Part shown: positions 11,378 to 22,451 of the stretch, in pieces
How positions within the stretch are numbered: position 1 is the stretch's first letter
How the letters are laid out: each line of letters begins with the position of its first letter
Assembly: GCA_900498245.1 (NCBI GenBank)
Contig: LS998015.1
Location: 3,088,687 to 3,132,343 of the forward strand
Length of the DNA stretch: 43,657 nucleotides
DNA from: Candidatus Zixiibacteriota bacterium
GTDB lineage: Bacteria; Zixibacteria; MSB-5A5; GN15; PGXB01
Direction: 5' to 3'
Notes under the pieces: generated by a model
Databases searched by the model: none
Told to the model about the DNA's origin: nothing
The model's input: only the letters and a program-made list of their open reading frames with translations
Translations under genes and position numbers: made by a program

Positions 11378-12145
11378 CTAAAGTTTCAAGCAGGCGTCGA
11401 CCGCCAGCCAGAAGAGTTGTTCGCGGACCGAAGGTTGCCAGTCACTGCTGCGGCGGTCATCCCATTCTATTCCGGAGACATCATCGCCGGCATACAGAAT
11501 CTGCCCCAGTTTGACCCCGCGAAACTGCGCCACCGCGAAAAAAGCAGCCGCCTCCATTTCCACCGAGAGACACCCTTCAGAGCGCCGCAGTTGCACCTTG
11601 GCCGGGGTCTCGCGGCAAATGGCATCGGTGGTCCAGGTCTTTCCCACCAGATAATCGACTTTCTTTTCTTGGAGAGTCGCTTCGATCGCGGCCATCGCCT
11701 CGGGGTGAGCGGCCACTTCACGGGCCGGGGGCAAATAATGATACGATGTTCCCTCGTCGCGGACAGCGATATCGGGCACCATCAATTTTCCCCGGGCAAT
11801 TTCCCTGTCCAGCACGCCCGCCCCGCCGCAGACGATAAATTTCCGGCATCCCCGCGCGATCGCTTCTTCCAGATATACGGCCGCGCTGGGGGCAGAGACC
11901 GGGCAAACCCCAAAAGCCACTCTCCGGCCATTATGCTCCGTCTCATGAATATAAACCATGCCGGATTCCCAGCGGTCGGAATGCACGGTCTTCACCAGAT
12001 GCGTCTCTTTTACTTTAGAGACTACCTCACCGAAAAAAGTAATGACACAATGCTCGGCGATATCGATCGGCGGAAAAAGTTTTTGCGGCTCGATCACCGC
12101 CTCGCGGGACTCATCGAATTCGAGAATGGGGAAATCGGATTTCAT
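11378..12145 (-). CDS. Nucleoside phosphorylase (PNP/UDP family, uridine phosphorylase-like)
   Basis: The 255 residues show the phosphorylase-I fold pattern: CGGAGVLD (phosphate/ribose region, about 106-113), a purine/pyrimidine-binding strand with KTWTTDAICRE, and SVEMEAAAFFAVAQFRG, where the M-E-A-A core binds ribose. These cytosolic enzymes cleave nucleosides with phosphate for salvage. The ATG at 12145 has an AGGA site nine bases upstream. The 129-base gap to the channel gene contains no clear terminator. Base specificity is not readable. Confidence 0.88.
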   Translation of the reverse strand: MKSDFPILEFDESREAVIEPQKLFPPIDIAEHCVITFFGEVVSKVKETHLVKTVHSDRWESGMVYIHETEHNGRRVAFGVCPVSAPSAAVYLEEAIARGCRKFIVCGGAGVLDREIARGKLMVPDIAVRDEGTSYHYLPPAREVAAHPEAMAAIEATLQEKKVDYLVGKTWTTDAICRETPAKVQLRRSEGCLSVEMEAAAFFAVAQFRGVKLGQILYAGDDVSGIEWDDRRSSDWQPSVREQLFWLAVDACLKL

Positions 12146-12882: not shown

Positions 12883-13416
12883 TTATATTCCAAATTCATC
12901 AATCGCAATAGGCCCGTCCTTTCGCCCCAAGTACCAATTATAACTCGACCAACCCCAATCCCCGGCGGATTCAACTAGTCCTTTCTTCACCGGATTATCA
13001 TGACAATAATTTATCTTTTCCCTTACAATGTCGGGTGTTCGGCAATTGTGATCGTAACAGCGACGTTTCCAGAAAACATGTCTGTTTTTCTCGCCCCGAC
13101 GATTTACAAGTTCCTTTAATATTCCTCTATTTTGGTCTTGCCATAGTCCCAATATTTCTCGAGCAGAAAGAGACTTGATTTCACCTATCACCAAACCCAA
13201 CTTTAAATCGGCAGAAGGCCAGATAACAAGATGGACATGATTGGGCATGAGAACATAGCCAAGTAATTTGAAATTATGGACATTGCGGCCATTGTCAAGA
13301 TGCTTCAGAAATATTTCCTTCTCCCGATCGTCAGTCAGCAAGGGAAGATTATTATAACAGCCAAAAGTGACGAATCGGGCGGTATTAAGATTATCGTAGT
13401 GCTTAAGTCTGGTCAT
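12883..13416 (-). CDS. REP-associated tyrosine transposase (RAYT1, Y1/HUH family)
   Basis: From the ATG at 13416 the protein has 177 residues, a usual length for the family. The HUH metal-binding motif is in MPNHVHLVIWP (His-Val-His, about 59-61), and the catalytic tyrosine lies in NYCHDNPVKKGLV near the C-terminus, followed by the typical W-S-S-Y. RAYTs are single-copy domesticated relatives of IS200/IS605 transposases that nick single-stranded REP hairpins. The start 11 codons downstream of the longest frame is preferred because family members begin close to RxxxY-x-N; no ribosome site is evident. REP copies c and d flank it. Confidence 0.93.
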   Translation of the reverse strand: MTRLKHYDNLNTARFVTFGCYNNLPLLTDDREKEIFLKHLDNGRNVHNFKLLGYVLMPNHVHLVIWPSADLKLGLVIGEIKSLSAREILGLWQDQNRGILKELVNRRGEKNRHVFWKRRCYDHNCRTPDIVREKINYCHDNPVKKGLVESAGDWGWSSYNWYLGRKDGPIAIDEFGI

Positions 13417-13437
13417 TGATACATCATCGTATATTAG

Positions 13438-13463
13438 CGCCCACCCCAAGGGGTGGGTTACCC
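13438..13463. repeat. REP-like hairpin, RAYT1 family, copy d
   Basis: CCCACCCC/GGGGTGGG around AA (13440-13457) with TTACCC on the right (13458-13463). It is the mirror image of copy c and forms the right border of the RAYT1 cassette, just after the exported-protein stop. Confidence 0.9.
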
Positions 13464-13469
13464 GTTGAA

Positions 13470-14258
13470 CTATTTGTCATTCACCACCGGGTTGGAATAG
13501 ATTTCTTCGCCCTCGAAATAAATCCCCATGAAATACATCGCCTTGGCCCGCCCCTTGATATGAAACCGGCGTGGAAGCCAGATGGTCTCATCGTACGGTT
13601 CATAATCGAGCGACATATCGAGTTCGCTCATCTTGAACATGAACCGGCTGATCAGACTCGCCGGCGCGAATTCCGCCCGCACCACATGATATGATGACAT
13701 ATCGATATAATAGGTGATATTGACCAGGGTGTCGAGAATATCGGAGACGGTATGCACCGTGTCGGCGACGGCGCGGATAACATAACAGGGGAAATCGTCA
13801 ACCGGTTTGGGCGCAAGACCGTCATAGGTGACTGTATAATATTTCCGCATCTCCGGGCGCAGAATACTCACGATATCGAACGCGATATCTTTGCCGCCCC
13901 GCTTCTTCTTCCGGTCGGCCCGTTCCTCGGCGACCTTGGGCAGTTGCTTGTCATCCTGGCGGATGCCGTCGACAAAATATCCGGTGTACTCTTCGCTATA
14001 GGCAAATTTGCCGTCGGGCCCTTTCTTGAGAAAAACCGTCTTGATATATTTTTTGGTTTCCTTGACATTCCCGTCACCGTCCTCCCGTTTCTCATACGAG
14101 ACCGCGTCCATTTTCAGATTGTTCAGTTGGGCGATTTCGGCGTCGCGCACGGCAATTACTTTAGTTATGATCGAATCGAGCGCCGCATTACTCCCGGTCT
14201 GGGCGGAAGCAGAGCCAAGGGCGGCCAGTATCATGCCAGTTATAATAATCAATCTCAT
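13470..14258 (-). CDS. Exported protein of unknown function, 3' end remodelled by RAYT1 cassette
   Basis: The 262-residue product has a signal peptide (about 1-19, cleavage after SASA). The mature part is rich in beta-strand-like segments with a basic ERADRKKKRGG patch in the middle. The pattern (YYIDMSSYHVVRAEF, then a strand ending WLPRRFHIKGRAKA) is reminiscent of LolA-like or outer-membrane lipoprotein-sorting folds, but I would not assign one. The end FEGEEIYSNPVVNDK uses a stop that lies just before REP copy d. A second copy of its last 13 codons is found 690 bases downstream. The start ATGA overlaps the stop of the HEAT-cyclophilin gene, so the two are translationally coupled. Confidence 0.8.
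   Translation of the reverse strand: MRLIIITGMILAALGSASAQTGSNAALDSIITKVIAVRDAEIAQLNNLKMDAVSYEKREDGDGNVKETKKYIKTVFLKKGPDGKFAYSEEYTGYFVDGIRQDDKQLPKVAEERADRKKKRGGKDIAFDIVSILRPEMRKYYTVTYDGLAPKPVDDFPCYVIRAVADTVHTVSDILDTLVNITYYIDMSSYHVVRAEFAPASLISRFMFKMSELDMSLDYEPYDETIWLPRRFHIKGRAKAMYFMGIYFEGEEIYSNPVVNDK
13480..13518. repeat. Right copy of the 39-bp direct repeat
   Basis: This is the partner of 12793-12831 and is part of the coding 3' end of the exported-protein gene. The two copies differ by one silent base. Confidence 0.9.
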
Positions 14259-16252
14259 TTTTTCTTTTCCTCTATGATTTGTATCGCTTTTATTTTATCG
14301 CCTTTGACAATTTTATCCACCGCCTCCATCCCTTTTGAGACCTTCCCGAACAATGTGTACCGCGCATCGAGATGCGGCGCTCTCCCCAGCATGATAAAAA
14401 ATTGCGAGCCGCCGGTATCTTTACCCGACGTGGCGATTCCGACTGTGCCCCGGTCGAACGGTTTATCGCTGTATTCGCACAGAATATAATACCCCGGCCC
14501 GCCGGAACCGTCACCGCGCGGATCCCCGCCCTGCACCACGAATCCCGGCACCACCCGGTGGAAAGTCAGGCCGTCGTAGAATTGCTCTTTGGCCAATTTG
14601 ATGAAATTATAAACGGTCAGGGGAGCGATGTCGGGATATAATTCAATTTCGATATTCCCATAATCAGTACTTAAGAGCGCCTTAGGATTTACCGCATAAC
14701 GGGTAATGAAGTTCTTGATATCCCGCTTGCTCGCCAACCCCTCCGGTTTGTTGACATAAGCCGATTTATCGACCCCCAGTTTCTTTTTATAGACGGCGGC
14801 GGCATCCCGGCTGACCACATATTCTTTGTCCTGCAGGCCGTGGAAAATTATTTCCTCGGCGAGCGAATCGACAGCGGTGCTGTCTAGAAAGACAGCCGCG
14901 GCCGCGACAATGGATCGTTTCATATCCGGGTCGGTCTTCTCCCCGTTTTTCATGAAGGCTAGAAGCCGTCCCAGGTACTGATGCGCCTTCAGTTCGCCAA
15001 TTTTATCGGCGGCGGTCGACGCGACCACGTAATCGGTATCATTGAGAGCGGTGGTGATATAGTAATCGAGATTAACCGCGTCGTTTTTCAGCAATTCTTC
15101 AAAAGCCGCCGCGCGCACATCGGGCAAACTATCTTTGAAAAAGGCATTCAAACGCGGTTTGACATATTCCCCGCCGATCGCCCCCAGCGCATGCACGATA
15201 CCGACATTGATATAGCGGTTTTTCAATGACTCCAGAGAATCGATCAAAGGCAGAACTTCGGCACCGTCGATTTGGGCCAGATAGACAATCCCGGAGGCCT
15301 TGATATTGGGGCTGTCCAGCGAATCGATATCGCGGCGCACTTCTTCGGCGATGGCCGAGTCTTTCAGTTTCGCGAAAGAATCAATCAGAAGAACTTTCAG
15401 TTTTTCGTCCACTTCATTGTCATACTCGTTTTTGAGATATTCCACCGCTTTGGGGGAGCCGATCGACGCCAGCGAAATAATCGCCTGGGCCACGACATTG
15501 CCGTTTTTATCATTCAGGCCGATCGCCACCAGGTAGGTCTTGCCGTCATCCTTGGCCAGGCCGATACCGTTTATTGCCTGCACCCGGACAAAGGGATCGC
15601 TGTCCGGCAGGAATTGAGCGTAAAGGTCAGACGGCTCCTTTATGCCGAGACGCACCAGCGAATAGAGAGCGGCGATACGGACCGTCCGCACCGGGTCATT
15701 TTGAGCGATACCAATCAAATCATTCGCCGCCGATTTCGCCCCGGCGCGCCATAGCGCATAGCAGGCCTGGGTGCGAACGCGATGATCCGGAAGAGCCAGA
15801 TATGATGTTAATTCCGTAATGACATCGGTCATGCCGGAATCGGGCAGCCGCCCGATCGATTGAATCGCCGCCGCCAAGCGTTCCGGCGGCATATCGACAC
15901 ACTGCTCCAAGATTCCTTCGGCAAAACTTTTCTCGCCGGTCAATCCCAGGGCGAAAGCCGCCGTCTGCGCGACCGTATCCGAACTATCATTAATTAATTT
16001 GAACAGCCCCTCCGAGGCCCCGATATCGCCGATCCGCCCGACCGCCAGCGCCGCCCGGGCCCGGATTTCAGAATCGGGGTCGTTGAGATAATCCAATAAA
16101 CCGGCCGGTGCCCTTCGGGTGTCTTCATATTCGATTATTGACGCCAGAATATCCGCTTTGTCGCGTCGAAGATTGAAAATGTCCTGATAAAAAACAAAAT
16201 AGGCCCCGATAATCATCAGTATGATTATGGCGGCGGTCGTTACTTTTTTCAT
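14255..16252 (-). CDS. HEAT-repeat protein fused to a cyclophilin-type peptidyl-prolyl isomerase
   Basis: The 665-residue protein starts with a membrane anchor or signal (about 5-24), so the bulk is periplasmic. Residues about 40-490 are a series of 30-residue helical HEAT-like repeats (recurring ARAALAVGRIGD, AQTAAFALG, VRTQACYALWRAG). Residues about 524-660 are a cyclophilin domain with FHRVVPGFVVQGGD (catalytic Arg566) and GSQFFIML; HLDARYTLFG shows the His found in bacterial members in place of the cyclosporin-contacting Trp. The isomerase would speed proline isomerisation during folding of exported proteins, with the HEAT array as a client or scaffold platform (inference). Its stop overlaps the next gene by four bases. 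Confidence 0.92.
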   Translation of the reverse strand: MKKVTTAAIIILMIIGAYFVFYQDIFNLRRDKADILASIIEYEDTRRAPAGLLDYLNDPDSEIRARAALAVGRIGDIGASEGLFKLINDSSDTVAQTAAFALGLTGEKSFAEGILEQCVDMPPERLAAAIQSIGRLPDSGMTDVITELTSYLALPDHRVRTQACYALWRAGAKSAANDLIGIAQNDPVRTVRIAALYSLVRLGIKEPSDLYAQFLPDSDPFVRVQAINGIGLAKDDGKTYLVAIGLNDKNGNVVAQAIISLASIGSPKAVEYLKNEYDNEVDEKLKVLLIDSFAKLKDSAIAEEVRRDIDSLDSPNIKASGIVYLAQIDGAEVLPLIDSLESLKNRYINVGIVHALGAIGGEYVKPRLNAFFKDSLPDVRAAAFEELLKNDAVNLDYYITTALNDTDYVVASTAADKIGELKAHQYLGRLLAFMKNGEKTDPDMKRSIVAAAAVFLDSTAVDSLAEEIIFHGLQDKEYVVSRDAAAVYKKKLGVDKSAYVNKPEGLASKRDIKNFITRYAVNPKALLSTDYGNIEIELYPDIAPLTVYNFIKLAKEQFYDGLTFHRVVPGFVVQGGDPRGDGSGGPGYYILCEYSDKPFDRGTVGIATSGKDTGGSQFFIMLGRAPHLDARYTLFGKVSKGMEAVDKIVKGDKIKAIQIIEEKKK

Positions 16253-16391: not shown

Positions 16392-17336
16392 TTACTTCTT
16401 CGATTTGGCCGGTGAACATTTTCGGGCCGCTTTTTCGAATGACGGTACGGTCATCCGCTTGATATCCCGATCCAGTTTTTTGAGCGTTGCATTATCTAGA
16501 GCGGACAATCGCCGTGCAAAATCGCCCCGCTTGATTTCGGCCAGCAGTTTTTTCATGCGGATCTTGACATCTCTCCCGATAATTGTTCCGCCCGATTGTA
16601 CCGATCCGACCCGGGCCGCCACCGAAATCCGCTTGAACATCCCTTCGATACCATATTTCTTGATCAAATCGACAATCAAATCGATCTGATAGGCGACTTC
16701 CAGATATGCTTTCTCCGGCGACAGGCCGTCCTCAACCAGCGTTTCATATCCATTCTTGATTAGTTGCGACAATCCCCCGCACAGAACCGCCTGCTCGCCG
16801 AAAATATCGCCGATCGCCTCATCGGCGAAAGTTGTTTTTATGAGCGCCTGACGATCAATATGAAGCCCTTTAAAGAGCAATTTCAAAACCGTGTCAGCCG
16901 TCTTTTTACAATCCTGCCCGATACCGTAGAAGTAGCCGATCGATTCGGCGGCCAGATATTTTTCTCGCACCGCCGCGCCCGGCCCAAGCGGGGCCAGAAG
17001 GATGACCGGGCAATTTTTGGGCGGAACTATTGTTTTGAAATGGATCGAGAAGCCATGCAAAAAAACCAGGGTGGTTCCCGGCTTCAAATGCGGCTCAATA
17101 TCCCTGGCGAAAACAGGGCCGTGCAAATGATCGGGGAAAGCGAAAATTAGAATATCCGCTTGTTTCACCGCCTCACTCACCGGGACAACAATTTTGAGGC
17201 CGTCTTTCGACGCTGTCCGCCTTGATTTGGATCTGACGGGAAGGCCGACTATTATATCCAGTCCTGAATCTCTCAGATTCAAAGCCCAGGCTCGTCCCTG
17301 AGAACCGTAACCGAGAACTGCAATCTTATGCGGCAT
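16392..17336 (-). CDS. Divergent ketol-acid reductoisomerase-like protein
   Basis: The 314-residue length and order match class I KARI. They include the Rossmann motif GYGSQG (9-14), an RSKSRR stretch suited to NADPH (35-40), HGF (94-96), DIFGEQAVLCGG (177-188) with metal ligands Asp177 and Glu181, and AYLE with Glu213. Two normally invariant active-site residues are changed: the lysine of APKGPG is Leu117, and the second glutamate of the E-x3-E pair is Gln217. The SNTAEYG segment reads SVAARVG. KARI makes branched-chain amino-acid precursors, but no ilv genes are near. The protein may have another substrate or be inactive as KARI. I therefore withhold the ilvC symbol. Confidence 0.8.
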   Translation of the reverse strand: MPHKIAVLGYGSQGRAWALNLRDSGLDIIVGLPVRSKSRRTASKDGLKIVVPVSEAVKQADILIFAFPDHLHGPVFARDIEPHLKPGTTLVFLHGFSIHFKTIVPPKNCPVILLAPLGPGAAVREKYLAAESIGYFYGIGQDCKKTADTVLKLLFKGLHIDRQALIKTTFADEAIGDIFGEQAVLCGGLSQLIKNGYETLVEDGLSPEKAYLEVAYQIDLIVDLIKKYGIEGMFKRISVAARVGSVQSGGTIIGRDVKIRMKKLLAEIKRGDFARRLSALDNATLKKLDRDIKRMTVPSFEKAARKCSPAKSKK

Positions 17337-20714: not shown

Positions 20715-22451
20715 ATGGAAAGGGAATTTAGTTTTCAAGCAAAAGACACAACTTTGAAAAATATTCTTTTTGGAACATCAAAATATAAAATACCTCGGTA
20801 TCAGCGGCCATATAATTGGAACGAGGATCAACTATCCGATTTCTGGAGCGATCTCACTAATAATCAAAGTTCGTATTTCATTGGATCCTTTATATTAAAC
20901 AAGGAACCTCTTAAAGTAACTGGATACATTGATGTAATTGATGGCCAACAGAGGATGCTAACCACAACAATTTTTATTTCTGTCATTCGTAATTTAATGA
21001 AAGAGTACGATGATAAGATGGCAGATTTAATTCAGACTCAAGACATTGCTTTTAGAGACCGAGATGGGATAGACTCCTTTCGAATTGAATGCGGTGAATC
21101 TACGCGAGAATATTTTGAAAAATTTATTCAGTCCACATCTTCAGATATCTCTAAGAGCAATCCCAAATCTGCGGAAGAAATACGTATTTTCAAAAATTAT
21201 AATTATTTCTACAGCAATATCATGAGCAATCTTGAAAGATGCCAAAATATGGGGGAAAAAATAAACTACTTAAAGGATCTAAGATCTAAGATCGCGGATC
21301 TTGTAGTTATCGAAATTGAGATTGATAGCGAAGAGGACGCATATGAAATATTTGAAACTACAAATGCCAGAGGAGTGGAATTATCTATTGCTGATTTATT
21401 GAAAAATCTAATTTTGAAGAAAATTCCTGCAAAAAAGGACAAGGATTTTGCCAAAGATGTATGGCAGGAAATCGTCAATAATGTTCAGGCGACAAACACT
21501 GAATTAAATAGATTCCTCAGGTATTATTGGATATCGAAATATTCCTTCGTTACTGAAAAGAAATTATTTAAAGAAATAAAAAAGGAAATAACGGATTGGG
21601 AAAAGCTATTATATGAGTTGTGTGAAGCGTCCGAAGACTATTATAAACTAATTTCCGGCAATGAGGAAGACTGGCGTGACAAGAAAAATGGTGTAAGAAT
21701 CTATCGGGCTTTGTCTGCTATTAGAATCATGGGTGTGTCCCAGTGCTATGTTCTCTTCCTATCAATCTTGCGTAATTATAATAAATTTGAGACTGACCCC
21801 ACTAGGATTTTTGAAAAAATTGAAAATTTCACTTTTCAATATTCTTCTATTTGCAGAATGCCCGGAAACAAAGTCGAAAAGATCTATTCAAAATATGCTC
21901 GCAAAATAGAACAGATAGCCAAATCTGAGATAAAGAAAAATGCCACTAAGAAAGCCCAATCTACCTTTGAAGAGCTGCTCAAGGAACTATATGATGAAAG
22001 GCCTTCGCTTGAGGCATTTAAAGAAAATTTCTTGGAATTAGAGTATGGTCGATCCGAAAAGACGCGCATTTTGGCGACATATGTTCTTAGTAAAATAAAT
22101 GGTATTGCCGAAAGCGGTGAGTATTTAATCGATTTCAACAATGTTAATATTGAACACCTCTTGCCTCAAAATCCTGATCCGAAATGGAATTTGAACAAAA
22201 AGGATATAAGGGGATATGTTGATAAACTTGGCAACTTGACCCTTTTGGGCAGACGAATAAATGCGAAAGTTGGTAACAAAATCATAAAGGAAAAAATTGA
22301 GGAATTGAAGACTTCCAAGATAAAAATGACACAAGATCTGGTCGAATACTTGATCAAAAATGACTTCAAATGGGATGCCGAAGAAATAAATAAGAGGCAT
22401 GAGGCATTGGCCTTATTGGGATATAATAGAGTCTGGCTTATCGACAAATAG
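20715..22451 (+). CDS. DUF262-DUF1524 protein, GmrSD-like type IV restriction enzyme
   Basis: The 578-residue protein has an N-terminal DUF262 domain with IPRYQRPYNW (about 28-37) and IDGQQRMLTT (about 76-85). The latter is the DGQQR signature of the GmrS/ParB-like nucleotide-hydrolysing domain. The C-terminal DUF1524 domain holds NIEHLLPQNP (Glu480, His481) and KLGNLTLLGRRIN, the HNH-type nuclease pattern. Fused GmrSD enzymes restrict DNA with modified cytosines such as glucosylated hydroxymethylcytosine in phages; substrate here is not known. It stands alone, without methylase, and is markedly AT-rich compared with the ribosomal block next to it. Probable acquired defence gene; a REP mosaic follows it. 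Confidence 0.9.
   Translation: MEREFSFQAKDTTLKNILFGTSKYKIPRYQRPYNWNEDQLSDFWSDLTNNQSSYFIGSFILNKEPLKVTGYIDVIDGQQRMLTTTIFISVIRNLMKEYDDKMADLIQTQDIAFRDRDGIDSFRIECGESTREYFEKFIQSTSSDISKSNPKSAEEIRIFKNYNYFYSNIMSNLERCQNMGEKINYLKDLRSKIADLVVIEIEIDSEEDAYEIFETTNARGVELSIADLLKNLILKKIPAKKDKDFAKDVWQEIVNNVQATNTELNRFLRYYWISKYSFVTEKKLFKEIKKEITDWEKLLYELCEASEDYYKLISGNEEDWRDKKNGVRIYRALSAIRIMGVSQCYVLFLSILRNYNKFETDPTRIFEKIENFTFQYSSICRMPGNKVEKIYSKYARKIEQIAKSEIKKNATKKAQSTFEELLKELYDERPSLEAFKENFLELEYGRSEKTRILATYVLSKINGIAESGEYLIDFNNVNIEHLLPQNPDPKWNLNKKDIRGYVDKLGNLTLLGRRINAKVGNKIIKEKIEELKTSKIKMTQDLVEYLIKNDFKWDAEEINKRHEALALLGYNRVWLIDK

Follow-up and report, generated by a model that had tools for sequence, protein, structure and literature searches.

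A ketol-acid reductoisomerase homologue with replaced isomerase residues as a probable ketopantoate reductase of the Zixibacteria

The gene considered here lies on the reverse strand at positions 16392–17336 of the window, the whole stretch of 43,657 nucleotides that was analysed from contig LS998015.1 of a Candidatus Zixiibacteriota genome, which consists of a single contig of 3.5 Mb and is 98.9% complete. It starts with ATG and encodes a 314-aa protein that is placed among the ketol-acid reductoisomerases (KARIs) by domain and model matches and for which the role of ketopantoate reductase is proposed below. The Pfam domains KARI_N (157.2 bits, residues 3–155) and KARI_C (124.8 bits, residues 170–299) are both matched above their cut-offs, and with NCBIfam the protein scores 283 bits against TIGR00465 ilvC (cut-off 226) and 314 bits against the stricter model NF004017 (cut-off 336). 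Its nearest solved relatives by phmmer are class I KARIs, residues 4–287 aligning with residues 19–300 of the Methanothermococcus KARI 7q03, and these matches mark it as a class I KARI homologue of full length. An AlphaFold2 model based on an alignment of 28 sequences has a mean pLDDT of 92.4, and all 50 matches listed by Foldseek for this predicted model are KARIs (AHIR being another KARI name), with a TM of 0.91 by query length against 6aqj and 6bul. In the Pfam search of the protein, the ApbA_C domain and the PanG-type domain DUF2520 were not found, and the ApbA N-domain reached 20.2 bits against a cut-off of 22.2.

The Rossmann dinucleotide motif GYGSQG (residues 9–14, positions 17295–17312; this and all codons below on the reverse strand) is kept, with G9, G11, Q13 and G14 conserved both in the Zixibacteria clade and in other KARIs. 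Alignment and the ligands of 7q03 identify three further retained positions, namely the metal ligands Asp177 (16806–16808) and Glu181 (16794–16796) within DIFGEQ, and Glu213 (16698–16700), the first glutamate of ExxxE, within YLEVAYQ; the second glutamate of ExxxE is replaced in that segment by Gln217 (16686–16688), and the equivalents of the four residues in 7q03, assigned by residue offset, are Asp191, Glu195, Glu227 and Glu231, respectively. By direct reading and alignment, the lysine of APKGPG is replaced by Leu117 (16986–16988) to give APLGPG, and the active-site serine Ser238 (16623–16625) is kept in the alignment at the head of SVAARVG, which stands in place of SNTAEYG. These replacements, the persistence of the cofactor motif and first metal ligands, and the absence of adjacent ilv genes had been pointed out in a preliminary description of the sequence, and all are borne out by direct reading of the translation and by the lack of any ilv gene adjoining the gene in the window.

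Upstream of the KARI-like gene in the window lies a gene for a DUF5916 protein, and downstream, on the reverse strand at 14255–16252, a gene whose product carries HEAT repeats and a cyclophilin domain (Pfam and locus scan), for which no functional link is claimed. Across the 110 homologous loci scanned, a gene of this HEAT/cyclophilin cluster lies downstream in at least 27 genomes, and nadC and a biotin ligase gene lie divergently beside the KARI-like gene in at least 44 and at least 38 genomes, respectively, these counts being lower bounds because the flanks extended over ∼1.5 to 4 kb. Both nadC and the biotin ligase gene are cofactor genes, which is suggestive only, and no pan genes occur among the conserved neighbours within those flanks. 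Elsewhere in the window are found a GmrSD-type (type IV) restriction enzyme whose N and C domains are carried by a single protein (20715–22451, forward strand), an IS200-like (Y1_Tnp) transposase family protein that by its look is of the REP-associated type (12883–13449, reverse strand), and a member of the nucleoside phosphorylase superfamily (11378–12145, reverse strand), which reaches no NCBIfam equivalog cut-off and is nearest to AMP nucleosidase and uridine phosphorylase.

The closest named relatives of the window are Zixibacteria metagenome-assembled genomes, with 80% identity to CALMKK010000042.1. The KARI-like gene is present in 117 of the 132 genomes of the phylum, nearly always as a single copy, and in 75 of the 78 good genomes (≥90% complete and ≤5% contaminated; 77 others and the genome of the window). 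Sequences were read from 110 of the 117 gene-bearing genomes, the seven with fragments being left out, and counts were made on the 103 of these 110 homologues that have at least 285 aa and no in-frame stop. Gln217 is found in all 103 by alignment, as are Glu173, Asp177, Glu181 and Glu213, and Ser238 is found in 102, with an X at that position in the remaining row. Column 117 holds 78 His, 24 Leu, one Ala and no Lys; the Leu/Gln pair named in the preliminary description is a local form, and His/Gln is the commoner one. Gly176 (103/103, elsewhere mostly Thr) and Phe136 (98/103, elsewhere mostly Leu) are further columns specific to the clade. The comparison set comprised 79 other KARI-family proteins, 68 from the homology search of the window gene and 11 from plasmid records, in which the column of Gln217 holds 78 Glu and one Ser (a BurG relative, by register) and column 117 holds 76 Lys and three Arg, the latter in three divergent plasmid-record proteins. 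In the homology search, His or Leu117 together with Gln217 occurs in all of the first 12 homologous loci (L003–L014), 11 of them labelled Zixibacteria and one Ignavibacterium, and Lys and Glu are retained in the next 68 loci, which belong to Verrucomicrobia, Acidobacteria and a small number of other groups. The exchange of these residues thus extends beyond the window and is phylum-wide, and its occurrence in 103 homologues rules out sequencing or assembly error, or chance, at residues 117 and 217. The contig labelled Ignavibacterium sp. (L004, DYGG01000047.1), which carries the Zixibacteria form, matches the Zixibacteria genome G006 (L089) in motifs and identity and apparently represents the G006 locus, and its label is probably wrong.

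A tree was made by a quick method from 66 of the 103 clade members and 23 of the 79 other proteins. A branch with an SH-aLRT of 98 separates the Zixibacteria form from the other proteins, and most of its members group by family, as would be expected of vertical descent from a single origin. Estimates of dN/dS by the Nei-Gojobori method among eight near relatives were 0.08–0.17 (computable in 14 of 28 pairs), which points to purifying selection on the gene.

The genome of the window has no second KARI. The one other match in a PF07991 search (30.9 bits) is an S-adenosylhomocysteine hydrolase, and a canonical ilvC elsewhere in the genome, which the preliminary description had advised looking for, can be rejected. 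The protein had been regarded there as a paralogue, an idea that fails with the lack of any second copy and with the single phylum-wide clade formed by its homologues. Dihydroxyacid dehydratase (IlvD, PF00920) is found in none of the 132 genomes of the phylum, that of the window included (14/14 controls positive), nor in any of 60 in another search, and acetolactate synthase (TIGR00118) exceeds its cut-off of 538 bits in none of the 132 (14/14 controls positive), the best match in the genome of the window reaching 30 bits. Since the step that follows KARI has no enzyme, the known route to valine and isoleucine is ruled out in this genome, and on the same gene searches it is very probably excluded across the phylum. 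The preliminary description had also named, as a case against a changed function, that of the only KARI in a prototroph; the protein is indeed the only KARI, and its host, with neither dihydroxyacid dehydratase nor acetolactate synthase, should not be a valine and isoleucine prototroph by the known pathway. The loss of both enzymes indicates that branched-chain amino acid synthesis would not be the job of the KARI-like protein. The earlier suggestion, made with no substrate named, that the protein has changed its function and may be a different NAD(P)H-dependent reductase finds good support. Some genomes of the phylum hold TPP enzymes scoring up to 505 bits against TIGR00118, the value reached at G117:C55:3606-5270 in a genome without IlvD, and a few may hold a true relative.

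The pantothenate pathway of the phylum has a gap at ketopantoate reductase. PanB is found in 118 and PanC in 122 of the 132 genomes, the C-terminal domain of PanE (ApbA_C) is found in 16, and DUF2520, described as the domain of the PanG-type enzyme in PMC4572677, is found in none, with two of 14 control genomes positive, by which PanG is rejected as the missing reductase. Among the 77 other good genomes, 59 lack PanE but encode PanB, PanC and the KARI-like protein; with the genome of the window the count is 60 of 78, and in those 60 no candidate for the ketopantoate reductase other than the KARI-like protein is recognised. In the genome of the window, PanB and PanC are full length without stops, PanE and DUF2520 were not found, and the KARI-like gene lies ∼1.5 Mb from panC and ∼2.1 Mb from panB. 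One genome that is 100% complete in 40 contigs (G017) has PanB and PanC, yet neither the KARI-like protein nor PanE nor DUF2520, and either needs some other ketopantoate reductase or has an assembly gap; six poorer genomes share this state. Absence of the KARI-like gene shows no association with presence of PanE (2/15 against 14/116, Fisher p = 1.0, 131 genomes), and the two proteins occur together in 14 genomes. Its absence goes with absence of PanC in 131 genomes (p = 0.0001; p = 0.11 in the 77 good genomes), which draft incompleteness may explain. One PanC match, at G125:C1:118929-119774, lies within an open reading frame of 22079 aa, which either is a true giant or results from reading through a stretch of N.

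The KARI-like protein is probably an isomerase-dead KARI that has been specialised as a ketopantoate reductase (EC 1.1.1.169) for pantothenate and CoA. Its substrate would be 2-dehydropantoate (ketopantoate), which PanB produces; reduction of this compound with NAD(P)H, in the presence of Mg2+, would give pantoate for PanC and then for CoA synthesis. The isomerase half of the KARI reaction would have been lost and the reductase half kept, and we infer that Gln217 and Leu or His117 abolish alkyl migration but leave the reductase step working, and that the enzyme acts on ketopantoate, to which the genomic gap points, with PanB and PanC present, PanE rare and DUF2520 absent. An ancestral IlvC may have reduced ketopantoate as a side activity, which would have become the sole reason for retention of the gene when the ancestor lost valine and isoleucine synthesis, and the residues serving alkyl migration alone would have changed afterwards. 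Because ketopantoate needs reduction alone, relaxed selection on the migration residues would be expected after such a pathway loss. It is also reasonably likely that an isomerase-dead KARI is the main ketopantoate reductase of the phylum as a whole, a further reductase family that would have arisen by fixation of an IlvC side activity, with the main activity lost together with valine and isoleucine synthesis at the base of the phylum.

Gln217 replaces the second glutamate of ExxxE, which presumably has its match in E496 of spinach KARI. In simulations of the spinach enzyme, E496 was modelled with a proton, and the substrate without one, at the stage immediately preceding the methyl shift (PMC11264209). 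In one class I KARI, Asp191, Glu195 and Glu231 are described as the ligands of the two metals, Glu227 lying at a greater distance (PMC8615647), and Gln217 takes the place of Glu231. In the KARI-derived enzyme BurG, the exchange E232Q is reported to hamper carbon rearrangement, yet hydroxypyruvate is still reduced at half the rate (kcat of 8.2 per min, down from 16.3 per min; PMC9359912). Alignment of the BurG relative to BurG places E232 two helix residues beyond the position of Gln217, and the comparison would accordingly be an analogy of role and not of column.

An isomerase-dead KARI may instead reduce another 2-keto acid, such as hydroxypyruvate, one of the branched-chain 2-keto acids or an intermediate in some unknown cofactor pathway encoded near nadC and birA, with pantoate supplied by another, unrecognised reductase. 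KARIs are reported to reduce many 2-keto acids (PMC4353338) and BurG to reduce hydroxypyruvate (PMC9359912), the adjoining genes are nadC and the biotin ligase gene with no pan gene among them, and G017 has PanB and PanC without the KARI-like protein. Under this explanation, however, 60 of the 78 good genomes would possess PanB and PanC but lack any recognised enzyme for ketopantoate reduction, even though the protein they retain comes from a family in which that activity is known, and the explanation is considered rather unlikely.

That the protein is still a working acetohydroxyacid isomeroreductase, with the other branched-chain steps carried out by unrecognised enzymes, is very improbable given the absence of IlvD from 132 of 132 genomes, the best acetolactate synthase match of 30 bits in the genome of the window and the replacement of two catalytic residues throughout the clade, against which can be set the score above the equivalog cut-off of TIGR00465 ilvC and the near-cut-off TPP enzymes of some genomes (505 vs 538 bits in G117). 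A relic that is being lost, or a protein with no catalytic function, would fit with the disappearance of the other branched-chain enzymes and is the least credible of these explanations, as the gene has a dN/dS of 0.08–0.17 and is kept in 75 of the 78 good genomes, the cofactor motif and other active-site residues are conserved, and a KARI fold is confidently predicted (pLDDT 92).

Compared with class I KARI (IlvC, EC 1.1.1.86), the Zixibacteria protein shares the predicted fold, both Pfam domains, the dinucleotide motif and Asp177, Glu181, Glu213 and Ser238, but it is without Lys117 and Glu217, and the pathway partners acetolactate synthase (AHAS) and dihydroxyacid dehydratase (DHAD) are missing from its own genome and, above cut-off, from the phylum. 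A KARI-family protein standing in for an absent PanE has been described for Corynebacterium glutamicum, where ilvC makes up for missing panE (PMC4353338, citing Merkamm 2003), and for Buchnera, whose ilvC restores an E. coli strain mutated in both panE and ilvC (PMC4306246). Those enzymes have a dual role and still take part in branched-chain synthesis (PMC4353338, PMC4306246), whereas Zixibacteria have lost the remainder of that pathway and carry other residues at the isomerase positions. PanE/ApbA and PanG/DUF2520 would share the proposed reaction but have different C-terminal domains. In the open literature, no published report of a KARI-derived dedicated ketopantoate reductase, or of Zixibacteria in that connection, was recognised by title or start of abstract. 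If the proposed function is true, the pantoate step would be filled in most Zixibacteria, and the automatic ‘ilvC’ labels that follow from passing the TIGR00465 cut-off would wrongly imply branched-chain amino acid synthesis in the phylum. The protein would also offer a clear example from nature of an enzyme retained for a side reaction after its main pathway vanished, in which phylum-wide replacement of the residues of the lost half-reaction separates the isomerase and reductase halves of KARI.

BurG, a cyclopropanol synthase, resembles the Zixibacteria protein as a neofunctionalised KARI clade in which the lysine column is changed (Arg in the BurG relative L225), but it keeps the catalytic glutamate E232, needed for its carbon chemistry, where the Zixibacteria clade has Gln217, and the Zixibacteria protein differs further in being the sole KARI of its genomes. 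The BurG relative, encoded on Eleftheria terrae plasmid NZ_CP106953.1 (L225:2941-3993) and annotated with nothing more specific than an NAD(P)-binding domain, scores 546 bits to BurG (7pcc) over 342 aa. Adjoining genes code for an AMP-binding protein and for proteins with a thioester reductase domain and an fkbH domain, and the locus is probably related to the cyclopropanol pathway. A divergent ‘ilvC’ on Haladaptatus sp. YSMS36 plasmid NZ_CP119783.1 (L223:2920-3948), with Arg at the lysine column and mandelate racemase-like, enolase, SDR and cupin genes as neighbours, is probably another neofunctionalised KARI, in this case in an archaeon.
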